Source of the DNA: Phytoseiulus persimilis
Taxonomy: Eukaryota; Arthropoda; Arachnida; Mesostigmata; Phytoseiidae
Reading direction: 5' to 3'
Length of the DNA: 64,000 bases
Assembly: GCA_037576195.1 (NCBI GenBank)
Contig: CM075103.1
Span: 7,068,001-7,132,000 of the forward strand
Shown: in pieces, positions 5,301-61,189 of the stretch
Layout: the number at the start of each line of letters is the position of its first letter
How positions within the stretch are numbered: position 1 is the first letter of the stretch
Notes under the pieces: generated by a model
Told to the model about the DNA's origin: nothing
The model's database searches: none
The model's input: the letters and a program-made list of their open reading frames with translations, nothing else
Translations under genes and position numbers: made by a program

Positions 5301-6793
5301 ATCTTCCACACAGAGTTCTTGCCCCCCACATTGTTGCTCTCGATGAGAACTTTCGCTGAAAATAATTTGACATCGCAGTTGGCCAACATCGGCAAGAGTA
5401 CGTAGTAGGTCCGACAATCGATCGACTGCTGGTCATCGTCCACGAAGAACGCTTGTAGCAGCTCGTGCAATACTACCGCCCTGGAATTAGGAACAAACTT
5501 AGGAATGGTCGGGCATAACCTGCTCCCATGATGGGGGGATTGGTGGGGGGAAATTCCTGAGCCGACGAAGACAGCAGGTGTTGAATTAGTCCTCCTTACT
5601 CACCTCTCCGCATCCTCCGAGCAGCTCTCCAGCGGTTTGCGAAGAAGCGACAGCAACGAATCTACCAGGGGTGTAGGTGGTCTCGAGCACTCTTCGTCCA
5701 CTTCCGGACATCGTGTCTCGAGCAAGCGTTTGATAATTTTGAAATATTGGAGCTTGATCAGGTACAGCCACAGCGATGAGCTGGACGAAGCGTAGATCTC
5801 GACAAGACGTAGCGGCAGGACAAGAGAAGTGCCATTCTTGTGAAGGAGCCTCAGGTTCGCTATGAGGACGTCAGAGAGGAGTCTGCTCCAAGCCTCAGAC
5901 TCACTCTTCGAAACCATCTCCAGCACCTCTTTATGCCGGCTGAGCAGTGTGTGACTCAGTTTGGACAGCCTCTCGTCGTCTTTGGGAGTCTCGTAAAACA
6001 GGAACAAACGGGTGATCAGAGGACCGAGTTTCGGAATCGAGACGCCGCCAGCAATCTGTTCGTCGAACGTATCACGCAGCAAACGGTTCTGGAAACAGCG
6101 ACGTGAACCAGTGTGGGAAAGTTCACCATACATTTCTGGATGACCAGGAAGTGTCTCAGAACGACCAAAACGGGTAGACTTACGAATCTTCGTCGCGCGA
6201 GGAAACCTCGGACCAGAGCTTGGATTTTCAAGACACTCGTTTCCTTCTTCTTCTCGTATTCTCGGAGCTTCCGCTTCTCCTGTTTCTGACGGAGCAGGTC
6301 ATCGCGACTCTGTGGATTCCGAGTGCCCGAAATTAGGATAACAGCTCAAGACATGTAGGAGACTTCCAGTGAGACTCAGCTGTGATAGCTGCATTAGATA
6401 GGAATGATCGGCTCTCGCGTTTCGGGTCTGTTCGGCAATGTACCCTCCCTGAACAATAACAACAGTTTTCACGAAATGCTGAGGCCATGTGATTCCCCTT
6501 CCAAGCCATAATAATGAGGCCTGCGAGCCGGTTGAGCCCCAGATCCTCGGAATGAGCCCCGGGAATCGCTCGGGTCGGAATAGCTTAGTTTCGAGAGACA
6601 GGCAACCGGCTTACAACCGCGATGCACACAGATTCACATTTGTTCTCAGCGAACCAAACGAGAGTTGCAACGGCACGGTTTCGTGTTGTCAACGATAAGT
6701 AAACTTCAGATGACTTACAGGGTCATTGTGTCGACTGGCTCCACCGAGAGCCTGCGTTGGCCTTCTGCGAAATTGTCCTTCAAAGCTGAACAT
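2318..6793 (-). CDS. UBE3C: UBE3C-type HECT E3 ubiquitin ligase, complete
   Basis: Eight exons on the minus strand, 5' to 3': 6793-6719, 6309-6184, 6088-5604, 5480-4285, 4192-3969, 3812-3475, 3137-2660 and 2485-2318. All junctions are GT-AG and in phase, giving 1029 residues (human UBE3C is near 1080). The start MFSFEGQFRRRPTQALGGAS is diagnostic. An IQ-like motif (IQALVRGFLARRRF) sits at about 54-67, an acidic Asp/Ser/Glu stretch mid-protein, and the HECT domain at about 680-1029. The catalytic Cys is near 997 in LPTAATC and the protein ends in GFELS. UBE3C binds the proteasome and extends ubiquitin chains (family knowledge). The last intron happens to be open in frame, so an unspliced reading would insert residues after LLGFK. 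The gene diverges from NUP62 across about 620 bp. Confidence 0.95.
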
Positions 6794-28350: not shown

Positions 28351-28374
28351 ATAAATGAATTCTCTCACTCGACA

Positions 28375-28870
28375 ATTGGTGTTTTCAATGTGCAGGGGGT
28401 AAGAACGAAGGGAAATGGGAGAGTCTACGCAGAGAGCTCCTAGAAGAGAAGGATGATGAAATGTCGAACCGATATGACATTCTAATATTATCCGAAACCC
28501 ATCTAATGAACATAGAAGAACCACCTCATATAGAGGAGTTCTCATTCTATGGAAGCAACAGAAAAGGACCCTCTGGTAATAAATCACCCGGCGGAACGGG
28601 TGTCCTCATGCGATCCGCCGTGGGTGACGTACACTGGACCCAGAAAGGGGAAGCTTTCGTTGCTATAGGCACGATTCGTACGATCATTCGAGATAGGGTA
28701 TCGGACGAAAACAAGTTGCTGATTGCGGGGGACATGAATGCCCACATACAACAACTTGACGGGCGAACAGACGGTCGAGGGGAACTCCTAGCAGAGCTAG
28801 CAGAAAAGTACGATCTCACGATCCTGAATCTCTCGGGGAAATGTAGAGGAGAGACCACTCGAAGACAGGG
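28375..28870 (+). mobile_element. LINE endonuclease domain relic
   Basis: The plus-strand frame (one shift early) starts IGVFNVQGVRTKG and continues DILILSETHL, GGTGVLM and KLLIAGDMNAHI, then LAELAEKYDLTILNL. These are the usual APE-type endonuclease motifs of non-LTR retrotransposons (catalytic Glu in SETHL, Asp/Asn in GDMNAH). The C-terminal Ser-Asp-His motif and the reverse transcriptase are missing here: the frame degenerates and a 45-bp repeat array follows. Confidence 0.75.
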
Positions 28871-29008
28871 GGTATCTCATCTACACTCGATTAGGTTATA
28901 CTACCAGCCGGCCTCTGCCCGACTAGTGTCGGCCGCTTTGGGCGGTTGGACGGCGTTCCCTGGCATTGTGGCAGTTTTCTCTCTCTCTCATCACCGGGTC
29001 AGCATCAT

Positions 29009-29253
29009 GGTTTTGGAAAGTACGGTCAGATAGGTCCCGGAATAACCCCTCTCGATTCGAAGAAGTATGGTAAGCCTGGTCGCGAAACCCCGCCCCCCTC
29101 CAGGTTTTAAAAAGTATGGTCAAATTGGTCTCGGAATCAGCCCTTCAGACTTGGAAAAGTAATCGGATCGGTCCCGGAATCACCCCTCCAGATTTGGAAG
29201 AGTATGCTCAGATTGGGCCCAGAATCACACCTCCAGATTTGGAAGAGTATGGT
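29009..29253. repeat. 45-bp tandem repeat, array A
   Basis: About five and a half imperfect units of a 45-base repeat whose core reads TTGGTCCCGGAATCACCCC, followed by TCCAGATTTGGAAAAGTATG. The same repeat recurs at 33196-33265 and 34637-34763. Forty-five bases is fifteen codons, and the better copies stay open in frame on both strands. Confidence 0.85.
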
Positions 29254-30074: not shown

Positions 30075-30080
30075 TTTATT
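30075..30080 (-). terminator. Poly(A) signal of PAM2 gene copy 1
   Basis: AATAAA on the minus strand, 35 bp past the stop codon of the gene at 30115-30588. Confidence 0.75.
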
Positions 30081-30114: not shown

Positions 30115-30588
30115 TCAGTAACAGTACATCCATACTGTCAGCCCGACCTCGTATGTGAAAGCGACTGGTTCCGGGTACGTCGGGACCGAAGCCTGAACGA
30201 GCTGGCGTAGTCTAGGAGCATGAGCGCGGAATTCTGCAACCGCCGCGTCATACTCGTCGACCACGCGCAAAATTTCATCCGGGCTCCCACCATTGACGAA
30301 ATAGAGACCGAGTCTTTCTTGCAGGGACGGGGACTCGGTCTCGAAACTGTCGGGTGACAGCGTCACGTTTGTAATGAAAATTTTGAGCTCAATGAGCATG
30401 TCTTCGGTCCAGGTTTCCAGGTTCTCCCCGCTGTCACAACTTTCTGAGCCCTCTGCTTCGTAGCCCTCCTCCTCCTGGCAAGCATCCGAGGAGCTTGGTG
30501 AGAATTCGCTGGGGATGAACTCCTCAGCGAATGGCGACAGCGAAGAACGGTCGCTGCCGCAGTCCGAGGCGTTTCGAGAACAGTCCAT
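30115..30588 (-). CDS. PAM2-motif protein, PAIP1-like, copy 1
   Basis: One intact exon of 157 codons. Residues 15-26 read SSLSPFAEEFIP, which fits the PAM2 consensus (S-x-L-N/S-P-x-A-x-E-F-x-P) that binds the MLLE domain of poly(A)-binding protein. An acidic Ser/Glu linker follows. From about residue 65 on, LIELKIFITNVTLSPDSFET and then LQERL..VVDEYDAAVAEF resemble the first helices of the PAIP1 MIF4G domain (for comparison, PAIP1 has SFETEIEQFAETL). The protein stops long before a full MIF4G, ending VWMYCY. A TATA box lies 66 bp upstream and AATAAA 35 bp downstream, so it looks like a working gene. A second copy with 26 co-linear N-terminal positions lies at 33912-34376. Function is inferred: a PABP-binding translation modulator or decoy. 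Confidence 0.72.
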   Translation of the reverse strand: MDCSRNASDCGSDRSSLSPFAEEFIPSEFSPSSSDACQEEEGYEAEGSESCDSGENLETWTEDMLIELKIFITNVTLSPDSFETESPSLQERLGLYFVNGGSPDEILRVVDEYDAAVAEFRAHAPRLRQLVQASVPTYPEPVAFTYEVGLTVWMYCY

Positions 30589-30653
30589 TTCTAGAAAGTA
30601 TTGAAGGTTGTCGAATCGATGCTCGAAGATTCAAATCTGAGCCCCAGCAGCCC

Positions 30654-30662
30654 TTTATATAA
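30654..30662 (-). promoter_or_regulatory. TATA box of PAM2 gene copy 1
   Basis: TTATATAAA on the minus strand, 66 bp before the ATG at 30588. This leaves room for a start site about 30 bp downstream and a short leader. Confidence 0.65.
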
Positions 30663-30829
30663 GAGCTTCTCGGTTCTTGTTCTTCTCTCTCCCGTCAGCC
30701 AGCCCCTCCGCCCTCTCTGCCGAGGGGTTCGCTGAGCATCCCGCAATCTCTGGCGATCAACGAAGATACCGGTAAGGTGCACCCCCCGTTTCCGAGAGAC
30801 CCCCAGTCAACCAACCCTATGTACCAGAT

Positions 30830-31064
30830 CAGTGGTTCTCAAAGTGGTCGATATCGACCCTTGGGGGTCGACGGTCGACCGCCAGGGGGTCGATGGCCGA
30901 TCTCCGGTTTACAGAGGTGATGCCGGGGTAGATTCGACCATACTTCTCGGCGTCCACGTAAGTGGATAAAGGGGTCGACGATCGCCCCTTGGGGGACGGC
31001 AGTCCATAAAGTTCAACGAAGTCGCCTAGGGGGTCGATGGTTCAGTGGAGTTTGAGAACCACTG
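30830..31064. mobile_element. hAT-type MITE, 235 bp
   Basis: Perfect 14-bp terminal inverted repeats CAGTGGTTCTCAAA and TTTGAGAACCACTG, a well-known hAT (Charlie/Tip100-like) terminus. The interior has repeated GGGGGTCGA words and no coding frame. The flanking octamers (TACCAGAT and TACTATTA) agree only partly, so the target duplication is eroded or one end is displaced. Confidence 0.82.
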
Positions 31065-31659
31065 TACTATTATAGATTCTTTCAACTATCATCAAACATA
31101 TTATTCTCCAGACGAGCGCAGTTTTCTGTATTCCGATGGTTTCCGAAAACCGTTCTGAGCGACTTTCGTCTTCATTGGGAATATTAAGGAACCTGAGTCG
31201 GAAAGGCTCGACTCAACTCCCGTCGGAGCCGATTTGATTACGATGCCCACCCGGACGAGAATCAATCTGGAAAGTTCATTCTAACAGAATATTCGCTGAT
31301 CGCGGCGGGCGAGACACGGGGCCGCAGGATTCCACCCTCATGCCGGCGAGCTGCGGTTTCCGAAGTCAGAAATCTCGGGTGATAACCCACCGAGAGATTC
31401 CGAGTGCAGATCGATGTTCGGTCAAGGGCGAGGAAAGCCAAGTGAAATTGAACAAAATCAAATCAAAGCGGCGGGTGAAATCCGCCTCGATGGGTACGGC
31501 TTCCGGAAAGCATGAACTCATTTGAGGGAGAGAGGGAGGAATGGCCCCAGACAGAAGTGATTTCCGCGAAGAATTCAGCCGCTCGCCCCCCGACTCTGCG
31601 AGCAACTCAATGTTCGGAGAATCAAAGTCAAATGAGGGGAGGTCAGCATTTTCCGGCCG
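31065..31659. other. Unassigned spacer before LINE fragment
   Basis: About 600 bases without a recognisable gene, between the hAT MITE and the reverse transcriptase relic. Confidence 0.35.
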
Positions 31660-32117
31660 ATAACTGTATTTCCATGTTGTTCACCACCTTTAAGAAGGTC
31701 CTGGTCTCTAGAACCGAGGACTGGATCGAGGAAGGAGAAGCTCTCAGTGAAGTGCAGAATAGTTTCACACCAAGGCGCCGAGGATACGCTGGCTCATTTA
31801 TTTTGACCTCGGCCATCGTATCATTCGGGAGGGAATCAGGAGAGCTGATGTGTTCCTGTTTGTATCGCAAAATAACGGCCTGTCGAATTGAGAGGGAACA
31901 TTTTCAGGAGAAGCTTGAACCTCTTGCAATGAATCCAACATGGATCAATTTACTCAGATTCATGGGCGCACGGAGTTACGTTGTCACACAACTCGATGAA
32001 TCCTCATCAGAAAGATTATGCACACAGAGTGGTCCAAGTCAGGGATGTTCCCCGCCGCCTATTCCCCTCGCGTCATATATCGTTGACATGCTGAGACAAG
32101 ACTCGGCTTCGTGGTAA
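31660..32117 (+). mobile_element. LINE reverse transcriptase relic
   Basis: The plus-strand frame holds FKKVLVSRTEDWIEEGEALS, then EVQNSF (cf. xxQxGF), and near the end LEPLAMNPTWINLLRFMGAR followed by SGPSQGC (cf. SGxxQG). These are motifs 2 to 4 of a LINE reverse transcriptase in the right order. The FADD catalytic motif is not intact; a damaged equivalent (FSDD) occurs at about 32580 in another frame. Same orientation as the endonuclease relic 2.8 kb upstream, so both may come from one element split by later insertions. Confidence 0.7.
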
Positions 32118-33195
32118 AATCTGCACGCGATGTCTCTGTGCGCGATACTCTCCAAACCAAGAGTGGGGGGAAAGAGGTTTGACCCCACAACGAACGAATC
32201 CACGTCGATCAACTGCACGCCCCTGCGCTCAGCCCAAGAGCAATCGAACGATGATCAGAGAGAACAGCGGATGTGGTGTTGCGATATTGGAGGTTTAGTG
32301 TCAGTCATGCGAAGAGAAACTACACAACTAGGGAGCCGAGCTGACAGATCGTCAAAAGCGCAAGAACCTGATCGATGTGAGCAACCGAATCCTTTGTTGT
32401 ACTCTGATGCGTCACTCCAAGGATCTGTCGGAGCAAAGGCAAACACTCAGACGAAGTTTGACGGTAGAAGAGGACAAACAATTCAGGAAAATGCAAGTCG
32501 AGGCTCTGTTTACGACGAAGCACTAGGAAACGGGCTCGTTAGTGGATGTCGTGGGAAGTAGAATTGGACACTGTGATCTTCAGCGATGACAGGGCGTTCG
32601 ACTCAGATGGTTCTAACGGCTTCAAGAATTACTGCCACGATATCTTGGAGAACCTTGATTTTTCTCGGGAAGGCAGTCAGGGGGCGGAGCTGTCATGGTG
32701 TGGGAAGCCGTTATCCGTCGCGTCACCCTTGACCCCTCTTCATCGTCACCTTAATGGAGGGAGGAGATAATTCCTTCAGCCCCGCACTGTATGAGAAGGC
32801 GGTACGTTCTCCGACTGACCTGTCACCGACCGACAGACGACGTCATGTCACTCGTTCTCAGCGTACACGCGGTGCACCATGATCGCCCAAAGGTTCGCAG
32901 TGGATTCCGGTCAGGAGAACAAGCGAGCAAATTAAAACCATTGGAGAATTGATGTGAGAGTGTGCTTTTGATCTTGTCCGCATTTACTTCAGCCGAGTAT
33001 GGGAACCGTGAAGGCTGAAGGAGGCCGTCTCAGAGCGTAGCGGAGACTCACCGAAAACTGCAAGCGACTCTCGCCAACTGACCGGGGCGTAATTCTTAGT
33101 ATATCTAGAGCTGTTCTGATCTGTTCTGTAAGTGTCCCTCAAATTTCACTCGCGGGACACTCTTGTTTCAGCGGTTTGGCTCTGTCGACGATCGT
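32118..33195. other. Decayed LINE and unassigned sequence
   Basis: About 1.1 kb. The first 600 bases probably continue the reverse transcriptase in broken frames; the rest shows nothing I recognise. Confidence 0.3.
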
Positions 33196-33265
33196 ATCAT
33201 GGTAAGATTGGTCCTGAAATCACCCCTCCAGACCTGTGACGCAATGGTCAGATTGGTCTCGGAAT
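33196..33265. repeat. 45-bp repeat, array B
   Basis: About one and a half units of the same repeat as array A (GATTGGTCCTGAAATCACCC, then TCCAGACC, then GATTGGTCTCGGAAT). Confidence 0.75.
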
Positions 33266-33529
33266 GCGACGCAGCGTTTCCCTTCGGAATCGGGAATGTT
33301 TTCGAGCCGACACGAATTTGAGTCTCAATTATCGATTGGTTGCCGTTTCCCCGGGTCCCACTTAAGGTTTCTGATAGGTCATAGGGAACGATTTCGCTCC
33401 ACGAATCGCTGTGTCGTTCCTTCGCGTTGATATTTTGGGATCTTTCGACATTTCTTCGAATACGGACAGCCCGGGGCTCATGTTTCCGGTACAAAAGTTT
33501 CCGATGACACTATCATCGGACCGTACCGG

Positions 33530-33616
33530 CCCAGTACAGCGATTCAATTTCCGTACTTCCTGGTACGGAAATTCATTTTCGCCGCCCCGGTACGGAAAAT
33601 GAATCGCCGTACTGGG
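33530..33616. repeat. Long hairpin
   Basis: Arms 33530-33556 (CCCAGTACAGCGATTCAATT, then TCCGTAC) and 33590-33616 are 27-base inverted copies with two mismatches, separated by 33 bases. The loop itself repeats GTACGGAAATTCATTTTC, related to the arms. This could fold as RNA or cruciform, or be a relic of a palindromic element. Confidence 0.7.
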
Positions 33617-33911
33617 GTTGCTTACTCCGTACTACGGAATATGATGTCTAGATGTCAGCGTCACATTCTTGATGAAGACCCTGAGTCCATGATCACCTTT
33701 CCATTCCTACAGAAGTCCATCATAACGGTATACTCGAAAGTTGCTAGAGATCGCGGAATGCTGGGTGAAGCCTCGGTAGAGGGGGCAGAGCCCATGCTCA
33801 GTGAGGGAGAGAGAGACGCGAAAGAAGCGGAGTTCGCCTTAAGAAGGGGCTGCACAGGCTTATGCATGAGTCACAAGAGGTACACCTCACAAGGTTCACC
33901 ACTCTTCAAAC

Positions 33912-34376
33912 ATGCAGCATTCTCAAGAGACCTCAGACTGCGCGAGCGACTCTTCTTCACTTTCGCCCTTTGCCGAAGAATTCGTTCCCGGCGGATCATC
34001 ACGCTCCTCTCCGGATGTGTTCTCGGGGGAATTCGCGGAAGGAAGCTCGGAGACCTCCGAAACTGTGGACCTGGAGGTCTGGACCGAAGAGGTCCTCACG
34101 GACCTCAGGATTTCCATAACGAACGTCACACTGTCGCCAGAAACGCTCGAAATTGAATCCCTGTCGTTGCAAGAAACGCTCGGTCTGTTTTTCTCCAACG
34201 GTGGCAGCCCAGAGGATGTTCTCAATGTAATCGACGAGTATGAGGCGGCGGTCGCTGGATTCCGCACTCATGCCCCGAAATTTCGCCAGATCGTCGATTC
34301 CTCGGTTCCAAATCATCCAGAACCTTCCATTTTGATACTCCCGCAAGAGCTCAGCCTGTGGATATATTATTACTGA
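33912..34376 (+). CDS. PAM2-motif protein, PAIP1-like, copy 2
   Basis: One intact exon of 154 codons, paralogue of the gene at 30115-30588. The PAM2-like motif SSLSPFAEEFVP sits at exactly the same residues, 15-26. A shorter acidic Ser/Glu linker follows, then LTDLRISITNVTLSPETLEI, LQETLGLFFSNGGSPEDVLN and VIDEYEAAVAGFRTHAPKF, closely parallel to copy 1. Both proteins end in an aromatic tail (here LWIYYY). Many differences between the copies are conservative, which suggests constraint, but I did not compute dN/dS. AATAAA follows 14 bp after the stop. Unlike copy 1 I see no TATA box upstream. It is flanked on both sides by 45-bp repeat arrays. Confidence 0.7.
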   Translation: MQHSQETSDCASDSSSLSPFAEEFVPGGSSRSSPDVFSGEFAEGSSETSETVDLEVWTEEVLTDLRISITNVTLSPETLEIESLSLQETLGLFFSNGGSPEDVLNVIDEYEAAVAGFRTHAPKFRQIVDSSVPNHPEPSILILPQELSLWIYYY

Positions 34377-34389
34377 GAACTCTCCTGTG

Positions 34390-34395
34390 AATAAA
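34390..34395 (+). terminator. Poly(A) signal of PAM2 gene copy 2
   Basis: AATAAA, 14 bp after the stop of the gene at 33912-34376. Confidence 0.65.
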
Positions 34396-34636: not shown

Positions 34637-34763
34637 GATTGGTTCCGGAATCACCCCTCCAGATTTGGAAAAGTATGGTCAGATTGGTCCCGGAGTCACA
34701 CCTCCAGACTCGGGAGTGTATGTTCAGATTGGTCCCGGAACCACTCCGAAACACTTGAAATCG
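34637..34763. repeat. 45-bp tandem repeat, array C
   Basis: Nearly three units of the repeat also seen in arrays A and B. On the plus strand they are open and would read GSGITPPDLEKYGQIGPG with 15-residue periodicity. Confidence 0.85.
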
Positions 34764-36721: not shown

Positions 36722-36793
36722 GACTCGGTGGCGCAACGGTAGCGCGTCTGACTCCAGATCAGAAGGTTGCGTGTTCAAATCACGTCCGGGTCA
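36722..36793 (+). tRNA. tRNA-Trp: tRNA-Trp (CCA)
   Basis: 72 nt, intronless. The acceptor stem GACTCGG pairs with CCGGGTC (one G-U). The D arm GGCGCAACGGTAGCGC, the anticodon arm TCTGACTCCAGATCAGA with CCA at 36754-36756, and the T arm with GTTCAAATC are all present, and box A and B fit. A run of T (36797 on) terminates Pol III. The sequence is nearly that of other animal nuclear tRNA-Trp genes. Confidence 0.97.
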
Positions 36794-53900: not shown

Positions 53901-56832
53901 TGAGTAAAACTCGCATTCTTCATCAGACTCTCCACTCTGCTAGATGAGATATTGAATTCACGAGGTCTAGCTGAATAACTTCTGCATCGTCTCGCTCGCA
54001 GGAAAAATATGGGTGAAAAATATTCTACGGGTGAAATCTGCGAAGGAATTCGTCGAAACGTTCAAGGAAGTGAACATAACGATACCCGATTCCGTAGCGG
54101 AGAAATTCTATTATTCATCTTTGAGCGTCAGCGGATTGCAACAGGTAACTAAGCTTCTCATGAGCCAGTCTCCATCAGCGACCATCTGCGTGCGCTGTGC
54201 CACCTGGTCGAAACATGATGGCGGGCAGTAGCCCTGGCCGCTGGTTCGATTTGACAGAAGAATCGACGCAGCTCAAGACTCGAGAACCCACGCCGAGTTT
54301 TCGATAAATCCGACACCCGTCACCCAAAAGGTCGCTTGAGCTTCGATGAGACACCTCTGTAGTTCGCCAAGCGTCGGTGGTTCAGTGGTAGAATACTCGC
54401 CTGCCACGCGGGTGGCCCGGGTTCGATTCCCGGCCGACGCAATGTTTTCCTCTGCGAGAGAAAATCAAGCTTTCTCTCCTCTCGCCCCACAGATTTTCGA
54501 CCGCGGTCGGCGGGACATCTACTCGCATTTGTGCAGCACTGACGCCCTTCAGAAGCTGCTGAATATTAACAACAACAACGCAAACTCGTTGCCGCAGCAG
54601 TTATGCAACTTGACCGAACCCGTGGCGTTTCTATTCACCTCGAACGTGATCCGGAACCTGAACTGGAACGCTATCCTGACCGAGATGGCAGGCATCACGA
54701 AGAAGAGCGGTTACGACATCGGCCAGGAGGACTGGCGAAAGGCGCTCTTCACCGCGCAGCAGGTCCGTAAGGAAGTAGCCGAGCTCAGTAGTCTGCGCGA
54801 AATGCTCGACAGTCTCTTCAAAAAGGTGAGATTCATTCCTGCGTAAAGACAGCCTTCATCCGTATTTGTGGTCTGCGTGACCTTCCGAGTCAACAGAAGC
54901 CCGGAGCCTTCTGAAACTCTTCTGCTGCAATTCAGGTTTCCGAAATGAACAAGCTGATGGACCTGAGTGACACAAATTCTACGATACGGTTCGTGCAAGC
55001 CGTAGTTTGTGGTCGAAACTCCACGACTTTACTGGACACTGAGCACGGACCTGCTCAGAGGATCGAAGAGTTCAGAGAGCAGATCAACTCCAATTTACAG
55101 CAAAGCTCTCAGAACTCGGACAAGAAAAATGACGATAAATACGTGTATGACAACGCAACCTGTGAGTACTATGTCTTCGACTCAAATCTCGGCTGGACGC
55201 CCATGGCGGGTCGGACACCCGAAATCTGATTTACCTCGGAGGGTGTCCGAGTTGCGGGCCTGAAGTCCCGACGAATATCATACGATCCGAGCGGGAACTC
55301 GTATTTGAACAGCTGTGACATTCAACCAACGATCCGCAGCGCAACGTTGCAACGCCGTCTTCAAAACTCTTGAGGAGAACCAAATCACGCTGTTCCTCTG
55401 GAAGCAGTTGAAGCCCTACGTGAGAGGCAAGATTCTTTATTCTCCGAGGAACGTCGCAACTTTCAAGATAATCGAGCGCGTGAATAAAACATTCGAGCCT
55501 CTCCTGGCGATCCGAGATATGGCCCACGCGTGGTCCACCATTGTCGAGCCGAAGATACAAGACTGGATGAAGAACCACTCAGAAGCTGTGGAACAAATAA
55601 AGGTCGGTGAACATTCTCGCCGGGGCATTTCCTAGGTAGTTTTAATTGCAATTCGAGGGATGTCTGCCAACTCGAGATAACATCCTGAAACTCCGCTGAG
55701 ATCAACTTCAACTGACTCAAGGATTCGAACCTTGACTCTAGGGTACAGTGGCATCCTCTGAGAAAAAATCTGAGTCTCCCATATTACCATTCCAGAAATT
55801 ATCGACGACAGGGAGTCTCCCTTTTTTGATAATGATGGAAGAGCACGTGAACAACGTTAGTACCACAGGGGAGGATGTGAACACAACGGGCGTAACCGAA
55901 ACTTTGGGATGGCTCGCGAATGTTCCCGAGTTTATTCAAGGCGCAAACAAAATCGCCCACGAAATCGAAAACGCGCTCGACGTAAGTCCAACTTTTTCGG
56001 AAGGAGAATTCGTTCGTTTCCCGAAAGTAAACTTCTTTCTTCGTGTGTATAGGAGAACAGCCTCGCGAAAATAGTCACAAGAAATGATCACGAAAAAACG
56101 CAACGTGCATCGTTTTCGATGTGACGTTAGGTATGGCGGATTGAGTTTCTTCACGTGTCCCGTTTTTCATGTGTCAAAATGGCGAACCGACCGGCGGTTC
56201 AACCTCTCATTGAACGAGCCGATTTCTTCCTCTAGATTCGGATTTTGGAAATGTTCGAGAGAAATTCGAAACCGATTCGATTATTAGTCCAAGGGTCAGA
56301 AGTAGCATGGATCCTGTTGACATTTGAGAAATATGATAGTTCATGGTGTCTGGCCGCGCTGCGAGGTTTCTGAAATCGAGATTCGCATGAAATGAGGCTG
56401 GAAAGCACATTTCGTCGATCTGTGTTGGCTCGGACCCGGCGGATCCGTTTGTGGGCGAGTCGGGCTCTCTCGTTGATTGCTTCGTTGGACTCTCGAGCGC
56501 TCGGTTCGCATCAGAAAGTGATTTCAAACTCCTCGCTGACCTCGGACGTCCCTGGAATTTTCGTCATAGCCTTGCCTCAGTTGCATTCGGTGCATATTCT
56601 GCGATGGCAGTATCCTATTTCAGTGTGTCGAGATGAACCGCTTCGAGGGCTACGATCGGGAGGAGGAGCTGATGAAGAATGGTTTGAAGCTCATGGCTGA
56701 GAACAAGCTCTGGGCGGCACTGGTCTTCATGAACACGGGCGGGCCCAACAGCACAGCGATCCCGAAGTTTATTCGCTACAAAATCAGGATGGACGCACAG
56801 AAGGTCGATTCGACCAAGAGGATCGAGGACAG
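50945..56832 (+). CDS. ABCA-type transporter, N-terminal half
   Basis: Nine exons: 50945-51107, 52942-53077, 53506 to about 53726, 54002-54144, 54493-54825, 54936-55161, 55313-55602, 55796-55981 and 56624-56832, about 635 codons. The start MMKFWFQLRLLLWKN, with a first membrane helix (IELIWPLLLFLILMWVR), is that of the ABCA1/4/7 group, and exon 2 gives HECHFDQKAMPSAG across the splice. The rest is the first extracellular domain, including LKPYVRGKILYSPRN, VNKTFEPLLAIRDMAHAW and IPKFIRYKIRMD. ABCA1-type proteins export lipids. The exon 3 donor is uncertain. The last exon ends in a GC donor (AG|GCAAGT). The expected next exon, the remaining helices and both ATPase domains were not found up to 64000. 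So the gene either continues beyond the window through a very long intron or is truncated. Confidence 0.85.
51108..52941 (+). other. First intron of the ABCA gene
   Basis: 1.83 kb between the exons that join inside the Cys codon of HECHF. No nested gene or repeat was recognised in it. Confidence 0.55.
54371..54441 (+). tRNA. tRNA-Gly: tRNA-Gly (GCC)
   Basis: 71 nt, intronless. The acceptor stem GCGTCGG pairs perfectly with CCGACGC. The D arm TGGTTCAGTGGTAGAA, the anticodon arm with GCC at 54403-54405 and the T arm GGGTTCGATTCCC are canonical. A TTTT terminator follows at 54444. The gene lies in an intron of the ABCA gene (54145-54492), on the same strand. Confidence 0.98.
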
Positions 56833-58930: not shown

Positions 58931-59093
58931 ATACTTACCTGGTGCCGGGACCTCCATGATCATCAAGGTGGAGACCCCAGGAGGAGGCCTTGCCATTGCA
59001 CTTCGGCGGGGTTGAGACCTGCCACTCTCCCAAACTGGGAAAGATGGGGCATGTAATTTTTGGTAGTGGGGGGTCTGCGTTCGCGCAACCCCC
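58931..59093 (+). ncRNA. U1: U1 spliceosomal snRNA
   Basis: About 163 nt, the usual length. It begins ATACTTACCTGG, which pairs with 5' splice sites. Stem-loop 1 has CCATGATCATCAAGGTGG (U1-70K loop) and stem-loop 2 has CCATTGCACTTCGG (U1A-binding type). Stem-loop 3 and the Sm site AATTTTTGG (about 59055-59063) follow, then the last stem-loop GGGGTCTGCGTTCGCGCAAC. All parts are in order with conserved loops, so it is probably a functional gene. The long open frame on the opposite strand is a shadow. Loop differences from the vertebrate sequence (GATCATCAAG for GATCACGAAG) keep the stems. Confidence 0.96.
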
Positions 59094-61189
59094 TCTCATT
59101 TAATGTCTAAAAATATGGTGACGTTGTTGGGAATACCATGTGTTCCACTACTCGTCGTGGGGCGTCAATGCGCAGCAATAAATTCGCCGCCTTTGCTTAG
59201 GGACCGAAAATCTCGGCGAGAGTTGCGAGAAGAAGACCTGAGTTGAACATAAATTTAATATGGATTCATTCGGGCAGTTGATGGTAAATCCTCAAATGCA
59301 CGATCCAAGACTCAGCTGCAATTCCTAATCGATCTCTTTAGGATCGGAGTTTGGAATCGATTTCAGCGCTTCGGCGTTTCCACTCAGAGAACCCCTCGTG
59401 AACTTTACTAGGCTTTCCTCGTCATCCATCCGAATTCTAGCTAAGGGTAGAGCATGGATCAACCGAATCGATCTTATTCAGCACTGGTCAAAGGCTCAGC
59501 CCAACTGATTGACCAGCAACAGCGCCTAACCTGGTCGCCGACTAAAACTCCCTTGCCCTCACAAGCCCTCCCCACGGCGGACCTAGACTGTATGAGCTGT
59601 AATAGCTGCCGCCACAGCCGTTCGAAGGGTCGCTTGCCCTGTTCGCAGTGGCGAGTTACCATGAGCTGAGCCGACAGATGAGAGTGATACAAATAGATGT
59701 TCAAGTAACCAATCGTCGTGACGGATAATTCGTACCCGCTTGTGAGCGTTCGAGGAATCTCTCGTGGAAGAAAGTCCGGTGAGTGCCGCATCAACTTGTT
59801 ATCCCGAAATCATGTGATTGTTCCGCAAACCACGTCAGAAATCGTCGGTTCAGTGTTGCGTCGAGCATATGATATCGGAACGCGCCAAATACATTCATCG
59901 CCAGCGACGATCAGAGATTGTTTCTGTGTCTCTTGAAATTCACAGAATTTTCGCGGCGCACCAAGAACTTCTAATCACGCGGCTCAATTCGAGGAAATGC
60001 ATAGTTCAGGAAAATTTTACTGCAAAGCGAGACTCATGAGCGAGAGCATTTCTTTCCGAGTGAACAGTGATGAGTAAACATGGAGAGAGCGCCTATTCCG
60101 GGACACGGCATCCAGTCGAAAGCACACAAATGAAAGTTAGAAGCGCATGCCAGAAATTTTGTTGTTGTTGCCCTCTCCCACACCGTCTCTTGCAACTCTG
60201 ACGAGCGATCGAAAATACCATACAGCGTAGCTCACGGCATTTCGACACTGCTCCATATTATCAGCTCGGTCTTGAACTCAGTACATGTCGTTGCTCACGA
60301 AGAGCGCTCCACTGGAATGATCATTTCAAGAAACTCGGGTGTCTGAGGAAGCTCAAGAAGGAGTACTTCTAGATGATGCGGTGGAATAGTCACCGACGTG
60401 AAGCATCGTTGCCGCAGAGGAGCACGCCAGCTGCTGATGATTCCATATAGTGGCATCTATGTCATTTCATCGACGCAAAACTGCCACTTTACGGATTCGT
60501 CCATATGAATCGGAACAATCCAAGTATCGGCTCCTCTCGGAATCAGTCGCGATTCAGAGGACTGATTCGGCAAAGTCTCGCGTGCTTCTGATCTTCAATT
60601 CGTGTCATGGATCATCGTTGTCAACGCCGCCCTCGCTTGGCTCACCTTGAGGCGAAGGACTTGACGGGATTATGATTCCCGAATTACACGGGCTCTTGTC
60701 CGACAACTATAGGCCCCCTGTAACCGCACCCTGCGAGCTTGTAGTGCGTCTTCTGAGGATTCTCAAGTGATCACTCGAATACGATCGGAATCGCTCTCCT
60801 TGATCCTCGTCGGGTTTTACATAGCCATGAAAGTCCACGTCTCTCTGTTCCCTTCGAGGCATCCGATGAGATGACTGTAGGCGATAAGGAGAAAAGCCTA
60901 GTGGGAAATGGGAGAATAGCAACGAAATGAATCGCGATCGTGTTTCTGATTCTGGATCGCTCGCCGGTAGAGTGGCGGCCTACCACCGAGAGATTTCTGA
61001 CGTTGAACAGCATTCGTACGCCAAGAGTATCGAGAATGCCTCATGACTGTGCAGCGAAACCGAAGATTAGATTATAAGAAATGGTTCCAAAGAGGGATGG
61101 TTCTACTCTTTTCAACAGGCTATCGTCAGGATATCGTCTCGCGCCAAGGCGTTCGGATGGCCGCATACGGAGTCTTGAACTGATGCGGT
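59094..61189. other. Long unassigned stretch
   Basis: 2.1 kb without a recognised gene. Short frames only. Confidence 0.35.

Follow-up and report, generated by a model that had tools for sequence, protein, structure and literature searches.

What are two small, intact genes that each seem to encode a ligand of poly(A)-binding protein (PABP) doing close together in the genome of Phytoseiulus persimilis? They lie in a stretch of 64,000 nucleotides (here called the window; positions 7068001-7132000 of contig C3) from a 181 Mb assembly of 127 contigs, in which contigs C1 to C4 measure 54.7, 52.0, 38.9 and 28.1 Mb. An original prediction described two divergent single-exon reading frames of about 155 residues, each with a PAM2-like motif, SSLSPFAEEF(I/V)P, at residues 15-26, an acidic linker and a segment resembling the first helices of the MIF4G domain of PAIP1. 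Both frames proved intact, encoding 157 and 154 amino acids, with the motif where it had been placed and an acidic linker in each protein (net charges -23 and -22). They are divergently oriented with start codons 3.3 kb apart, and the two proteins are 55% identical over 157 aligned positions in a pairwise alignment. As set out below, they belong to a family under purifying selection centred on PAM2, and the evidence from PAM2 and the first MIF4G helix supports shared descent with PAIP1. We refer to them as mini-PAIP1 genes; their coding features are as follows.

30115..30588, minus strand: mini-PAIP1 gene 1, single exon, 157 amino acids
30511..30546, minus strand: PAM2-like motif SSLSPFAEEFIP, residues 15-26 of gene 1
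30418..30510, minus strand: acidic and serine-rich linker of gene 1, residues 27-57, weakly constrained
30184..30417, minus strand: segment of gene 1 like the start of the PAIP1 MIF4G domain, residues 58-135, firm for the first helix only
33912..34376, plus strand: mini-PAIP1 gene 2, single exon, 154 amino acids
33954..33989, plus strand: PAM2-like motif SSLSPFAEEFVP, residues 15-26 of gene 2
34074..34307, plus strand: segment of gene 2 like the start of the PAIP1 MIF4G domain, residues 55-132, firm for the first helix only

More copies exist than the pair that was first noticed. A six-frame search of the genome with the 154-residue window protein gave 42 matches at an expectation value (E) of 0.001 or below, and a member from contig C4 gave 50 at E <= 0.1; both counts are lower bounds. 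Among the loci fetched, 21 copies are full-length and open, clustered on three large contigs (8 on C3 including the two in the window, 5 on C2 and 8 on C4, one of the latter with a shifted C-terminus), and 20 of the 21 encode 154-164 amino acids. These copies were picked for an open frame, which excluded stop-bearing and truncated copies and relics, some of them with an altered PAM2; decayed family members with stops or truncations thus exist beside the intact ones. At one C2 locus (L026, C2:43858402-43860123), repeats spaced by 509 bp bear decayed pieces of the family that include the first MIF4G helix.

The motif at residues 15-26 is the most constant feature of these proteins. SSLSP[FY]AEEF[IV]P is kept in all 21 full-length copies, and only the F/Y and I/V positions vary among its twelve. 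Its core, LSPFAEEF(I/V)P in the window genes, fits the PAM2 consensus LNxxAxEFxP, for which the weight of the phenylalanine in MLLE binding has been described (PMC7356810), except that serine replaces asparagine; PAIP1 of the same genome has the same substitution. The pattern L[NS]xxAxEFxP occurs three times in the six-frame translation of the window, in the two mini-PAIP1 genes and at one unrelated place (5545-5574, minus strand), against a mean of 0.015 per window in 200 mononucleotide shuffles. In a genome search with the Pfam PAM2 model at E <= 1, three of the 12 matches listed are mini-PAIP1 genes, at 18.6 bits and just below the cut-off of 20. The motif in every copy and its serine variant in PAIP1 support the proposed identity as PAM2.

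Are these functional genes? Selection was estimated on 20 of the 21 copies, the frame-shifted one being left out. The mean Nei-Gojobori ratio of replacement to synonymous substitution rates (dN/dS) is 0.17-0.35 between subfamilies, at a mean dS of 0.95-1.62, and 0.30-0.44 within them; among the single pairs shown, one close pair has a ratio of 0.97 (6.5 synonymous and 20.5 replacement differences). A codon model (kappa reported as 1) estimated the ratio (omega) at 0.321 with a log likelihood of -3345.2, against -3420.5 on the same tree with omega fixed at 1, and twice the difference is 150.5; the value near 1 that would have spoken against the original prediction was thus not found. The tree used sets one copy, C3_4468, apart from the C3b group in which it was counted. 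The constraint is unevenly spread along the protein. With one representative for each of four subfamilies (six pairs), the ratio of the proportions of replacement and synonymous differences (pN/pS) is lowest in PAM2, at 0.03 (pN 0.025, pS 0.727), followed by the HEAT-like segment (0.33), the tail (0.62), the linker (0.69) and the N-terminal 14 residues (1.14, given without a significance test); no region in these six pairs lies clearly above 1. PAM2 is the best-kept region and the HEAT-like segment comes second. Purifying selection is therefore centred on PAM2, and the mini-PAIP1 genes are probably functional genes in which the predicted PABP ligand is the best-kept feature.

The likely parent is present in the genome. 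The search with the Pfam PAM2 model led to a locus at C2:31357208-31358954 that can be modelled as a gene of five exons encoding 411 amino acids, with start and splice sites chosen by hand and a fourth acceptor that is one of four keeping the frame open. The predicted protein has a PAM2, LSPNAQEFIP, at 20.9 bits (cut-off 20) and a MIF4G match at 24.5 bits, below the cut-off of 30.8; the locus is absent from the seven matches of the Pfam MIF4G genome search. Its solved-structure matches at E <= 1 are PAIP1 entries only (6yxj at 1.4e-7 and 3rk6 at 2.6e-7). We take this gene to be the host PAIP1, and it is very probably the parent of the mini-PAIP1 genes. A genome search with its protein at E <= 0.1 returned one complete PAIP1: the nine matches comprise each of its five exons plus four pieces at C2:42.3 Mb that correspond to the last exon (residues 297-360). 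These four pieces were considered as further mini-PAIP1 genes and rejected; the two inspected resemble decayed remnants of the last exon. Downstream of PAIP1, at a distance of 4.4 kb (locus L049, C2:31361837 onward), there is a diverged gene whose start resembles PAM2 (MTLNPSAQVFVP); it may be a second PAIP1 paralogue.

The relation to PAIP1 is seen most clearly with the family taken as a whole. A hidden Markov model (HMM) built from nine of the 21 mini-PAIP1 proteins gives the host PAIP1 a score of 21.1 bits (E 2.3e-4 for 20,000 sequences), whereas the best of 4000 shuffles, 2000 of the whole protein and 2000 of residues 101 to the end, reached 7.9 bits. The similarity extends beyond PAM2: without residues 1-100, and hence without its PAM2, PAIP1 still scores 15.0 bits, and an HMM of the C-terminal part of the mini-PAIP1 proteins gives 14.8 bits on PAIP1 without these residues and 14.4 bits with them, against 9.5 for the best shuffle. 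Comparison of 14 family members with PAIP1 by hhalign gave one match, in which the first helix of the family, FITNVTLSPDSF, is aligned with the first MIF4G helix of PAIP1, FITDVTLSPELF (E 1.7e-5 for a single comparison, probability 78.5). When five members were aligned singly to PAIP1, the score was reached by 0, 9, 0, 1 and 0 of 500 shuffles. PAM2 and the first MIF4G helix follow in the same order in the mini-PAIP1 proteins and in PAIP1. The mini-PAIP1 proteins terminate after the region corresponding to the beginning of MIF4G; a complete MIF4G/HEAT domain is absent, and in the alignment they finish in an aromatic C-terminal tail. Taken together, PAM2 and the first helix support shared descent with PAIP1.

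Several results weigh against so close a relation. Homology to PAIP1 beyond the first helix is weak: in a structure search with the family profile, PAIP1 comes no higher than 9th-10th (E of about 0.9; equal spans of 68 residues), and NELF-C/D is placed first at 0.01. The Pfam MIF4G model matches none of 14 members, and the Pfam PAM2 model matches 13 of the 14 at E <= 1 with a best value of 0.005, the two window proteins scoring 11.8 and 16.6 bits, both below the cut-off of 20. The protein of gene 2, starting at 33912, is the one whose alignment to PAIP1 was reached by 9 of 500 shuffles. Structure prediction from two sequences was uninformative (mean predicted local distance difference test score 42.6). 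The resemblance to PAIP1 claimed at the outset thus holds firmly for the first MIF4G helix and weakly for the helices thought to come after it.

Other relatives were considered and set aside. A chimera with NELF-C/D, the best solved-structure match, was considered; the match was put down to chance because the corresponding piece of the NELF-C/D gene in the same genome reaches 6.0 bits against the 21.1 of PAIP1. Matches to a lysosome membrane protein (E 0.3 and above) were likewise put down to chance, and matches to designed WD-repeat proteins (best whole-sequence E 1.1e-6) are sums over repeats in which no single stretch passed. A search of solved structures with a C4 member gave nothing at E <= 10. 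A MIF4G gene 48 kb before the window (C3:7019724), which we take to be CTIF-like, was weighed as a parent; the PAM2 search listed nothing there, and it was dropped by impression rather than by score.

How did a five-exon gene give rise to single-exon copies? In PAIP1 the intron separating exons 1 and 2 falls between the parts that encode PAM2 and the first helix, and the mini-PAIP1 genes lack it. A retrocopy is therefore likely but not certain, and the family probably derives from a spliced PAIP1 message. Under this model, the message would have been copied back into the genome, the copy would then have lost most of MIF4G and gained a short C-terminal tail, and DNA duplication would have multiplied the resulting gene, promoter included, in clusters on the three large contigs. 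There are reasons for caution. Only this intron lies firmly inside the matched stretch, the next one falling where the match is weak, and its absence could also reflect plain intron loss.

The flanking DNA bears on the last of these steps. The signals on either side of the window genes are listed here together with a neighbouring relic.

30589..30738, minus strand: promoter-proximal 150 bp of gene 1, alike to three of the three other subfamily representatives compared
30654..30661, minus strand: TATATAAA box, 73 bp upstream of the ATG of gene 1
30075..30080, minus strand: AATAAA poly(A) signal 3' of the gene 1 stop
33762..33911, plus strand: promoter-proximal 150 bp of gene 2, alike to two of three other subfamily representatives (score reached by 0, 1 and 31 of 500 shuffles)
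34390..34395, plus strand: AATAAA poly(A) signal 3' of the gene 2 stop
33653..33691, minus strand: short remnant of another, decayed copy of the family (GLRVFIKNVTLTS), oriented away from gene 2

In comparisons of the 150 bp before the ATG between subfamilies, the score of four of the six pairs was unreached in 500 shuffles; further upstream (-300 to -151 and -450 to -301) shuffles reached it in every pair, at least 35 of 500 times. In 18 of the 21 copies, AATAAA or ATTAAA begins no more than 75 bases past the first base of the stop codon. A common proximal promoter fits duplication, at the DNA level, of a gene already equipped with a promoter. The fit is incomplete, as the other two promoter pairs were reached by 1 and 31 of 500 shuffles, the first 150 bp of the 3' flanks were unreached in one of six pairs and the next 150 bp in none, and a strict TATA[AT]A no more than 200 bp away from the ATG occurs in one of the 21 copies, the window gene at 30588. 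T/A-rich variants stand near the TATA place in other copies in a 12-copy alignment. A longer relic like that at 33653-33691 lies beside a related C3 copy (locus L010, 1937-2191, plus strand).

On C4, the mini-PAIP1 gene is joined in a 3.9-kb tandem unit, whole in locus L021 (1364-5252), to a Gypsy-like gag/protease/reverse-transcriptase fragment, and elsewhere on C4 the loci that match this unit do so at 94-99% identity. Three Gypsy-like queries taken from it match beside C4 copies and weakly near relics on C118 and at C4:11.6 Mb; among the matches listed, none falls in the fetched C2 and C3 loci. The idea that the genes travel as retrotransposon cargo is on this ground not supported for the C2 and C3 copies, with other elements not searched systematically. 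Flanking DNA and a 45-bp satellite are common to the C3 clusters. In the window a fragment of a LINE-type (long interspersed nuclear element) endonuclease lies beside the mini-PAIP1 genes at 28359-29030. The satellite is found at 29012-29251 and 34637-34744, and also in loci L012, L013, L026 and L053, near family copies or relics.

What, then, may these proteins do? Two adjacent MLLE matches in the genome, one of them inside an open frame of 606 amino acids, likely mark the gene for cytoplasmic PABP (PABPC). PAIP1 is described as combining PAM2, a 10-helix HEAT domain and PAM1 and as interacting with eIF4A and eIF3 (PMC8167360). We lean towards the view that the mini-PAIP1 proteins are truncated PAIP1 proteins that bind the MLLE domain of PABP through PAM2. 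Because at most the start of MIF4G is kept, they would be expected to sit on PABP but not to bring the complete PAIP1 scaffold, and would therefore compete with or modulate PAIP1 and other PAM2 proteins; the effect would fall on translation or deadenylation, and net repression, protection and stimulation are all possible outcomes. A comparable mode is known for PAIP2, described as consisting of PAM1 and PAM2 only, which inhibits translation and, for access to PABPC1, competes with both PAIP1 and eIF4G (PMC9753129). The analogy is weakened by the same account, in which PAM2 of PAIP2a binds hundreds of times less tightly than PAM1, and PAM1 is chiefly responsible for displacing PABPC1 from poly(A), so that a protein with PAM2 only may be a weak competitor. 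PAM2 alone can nevertheless act, since tethered short PAM2 peptides are reported to recruit PABPC1 and to suppress nonsense-mediated decay (PMC5118804). More tentatively, and at rather long odds, the roughly 20 copies might be a lineage-specific set of MLLE ligands of PABP, cut from PAIP1 and amplified for dosage, and serve as a dedicated layer of decoys; in a single tissue or stage, e.g. the germ line or early embryo, these would reset mRNA stability or translation that depends on the poly(A) tail.

A different outcome would follow if the proteins were positive adaptors, recruiting eIF3 or other initiation factors to PABP in certain cells and so stimulating translation as PAIP1 does. The constraint on the HEAT-like segment (pN/pS 0.33) suits such a role, and PAIP1 is described as binding eIF3 with PAM2 involved in the contact; the PAIP1 domain has 10 helices in the same account (PMC8167360), however, whereas the mini-PAIP1 proteins keep at most its start and the Pfam MIF4G model recognizes none of the 14 members, and we regard an adaptor role as doubtful.

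The original prediction had raised a selfish or antiviral role as one possibility. It is unlikely that the family consists of host-defence or selfish factors, in which amplified binders of PABP would hold viruses or transposons in check or bias transmission. High copy number, clustering and the young C4 array would suit such a role, and a paper title calls Paip2 an innate restriction factor for cytomegalovirus. Support from the present data is lacking: no region is clearly above a pN/pS of 1, one scan of viral contigs with two peptide patterns gave 83 pattern matches of which none was confirmed as a relative, and, among the matches listed, the Gypsy-like fragment does not stand beside the fetched C2 and C3 copies.

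Less probable still is a role in protein turnover, in which PAM2 would address a UBR5/EDD-type ligase. EDD is named as the sole MLLE protein besides PABPC1 in a review (PMC9753129), and a second MLLE locus at C2:51079389 is possibly UBR5/EDD; the identity of that locus is, however, assigned by inference, and PAIP1, the presumed parent, acts on PABP. That the mini-PAIP1 genes are non-functional processed pseudogenes spread with repeats, as relics with stops or truncations and the LINE-type fragment and 45-bp satellite beside the window genes might suggest, is highly improbable given the codon analysis (omega 0.321, with 150.5 as twice the difference from omega 1), a PAM2 with pN 0.025 against pS 0.73 and 21 full-length open copies, albeit chosen as open.

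Elsewhere in the window are a U1 spliceosomal RNA gene (58931-59095, plus strand; Rfam 136.9 bits), a tRNA-Trp gene (36722-36793) and a tRNA-Gly gene (54371-54441). Outside it, two closely similar MIF4G genes on C1 (loci L032 and L035), one with an interrupted frame, are presumably NOM1-like.

The family can be placed beside three known systems. With PAIP1 the mini-PAIP1 proteins share the serine-variant PAM2 and then the first MIF4G helix in the same order; they differ in size (154-164 amino acids in 20 of 21 copies, against 411), in lacking most of MIF4G and the proline/glutamine-rich N-terminus, in being intronless, and in being encoded by many copies where the search with PAIP1 found one complete gene. 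Like PAIP2 they are small acidic PAM2 proteins, with a similar predicted mode of occupying PABP without a full scaffold; unlike it, as PAIP2 is described (PMC9753129), they have PAM2 near the N-terminus and a constrained segment matching the first MIF4G helix of PAIP1. In form, the nearest precedent may be the primate ELOA3 array, likewise described as retrogenes of a gene-expression factor kept as functional genes (PMC10664989), with another parent and another process; the mini-PAIP1 genes are truncated and lie in clusters on three large contigs. We found no report of an expanded family derived from PAIP1 among the top-ranked open-access literature; subscription papers and eukaryote sequence databases were outside this scope, so annotated orthologues may exist.

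In conclusion, we have described an amplified family of small PAM2 proteins that probably arose from PAIP1 and that selection has kept, above all in PAM2. PABP acts as a hub at which mRNA translation and decay meet; most of its partners are, to our knowledge, old genes present in few copies. If our reading is correct, an amplified and strongly selected set of PAM2 proteins made from a PABP partner would constitute a natural experiment in the rewiring of this hub, and the mini-PAIP1 genes would allow one to ask directly what function a PAM2 ligand has in an animal once the remainder of PAIP1 is gone, and why its dosage rose.

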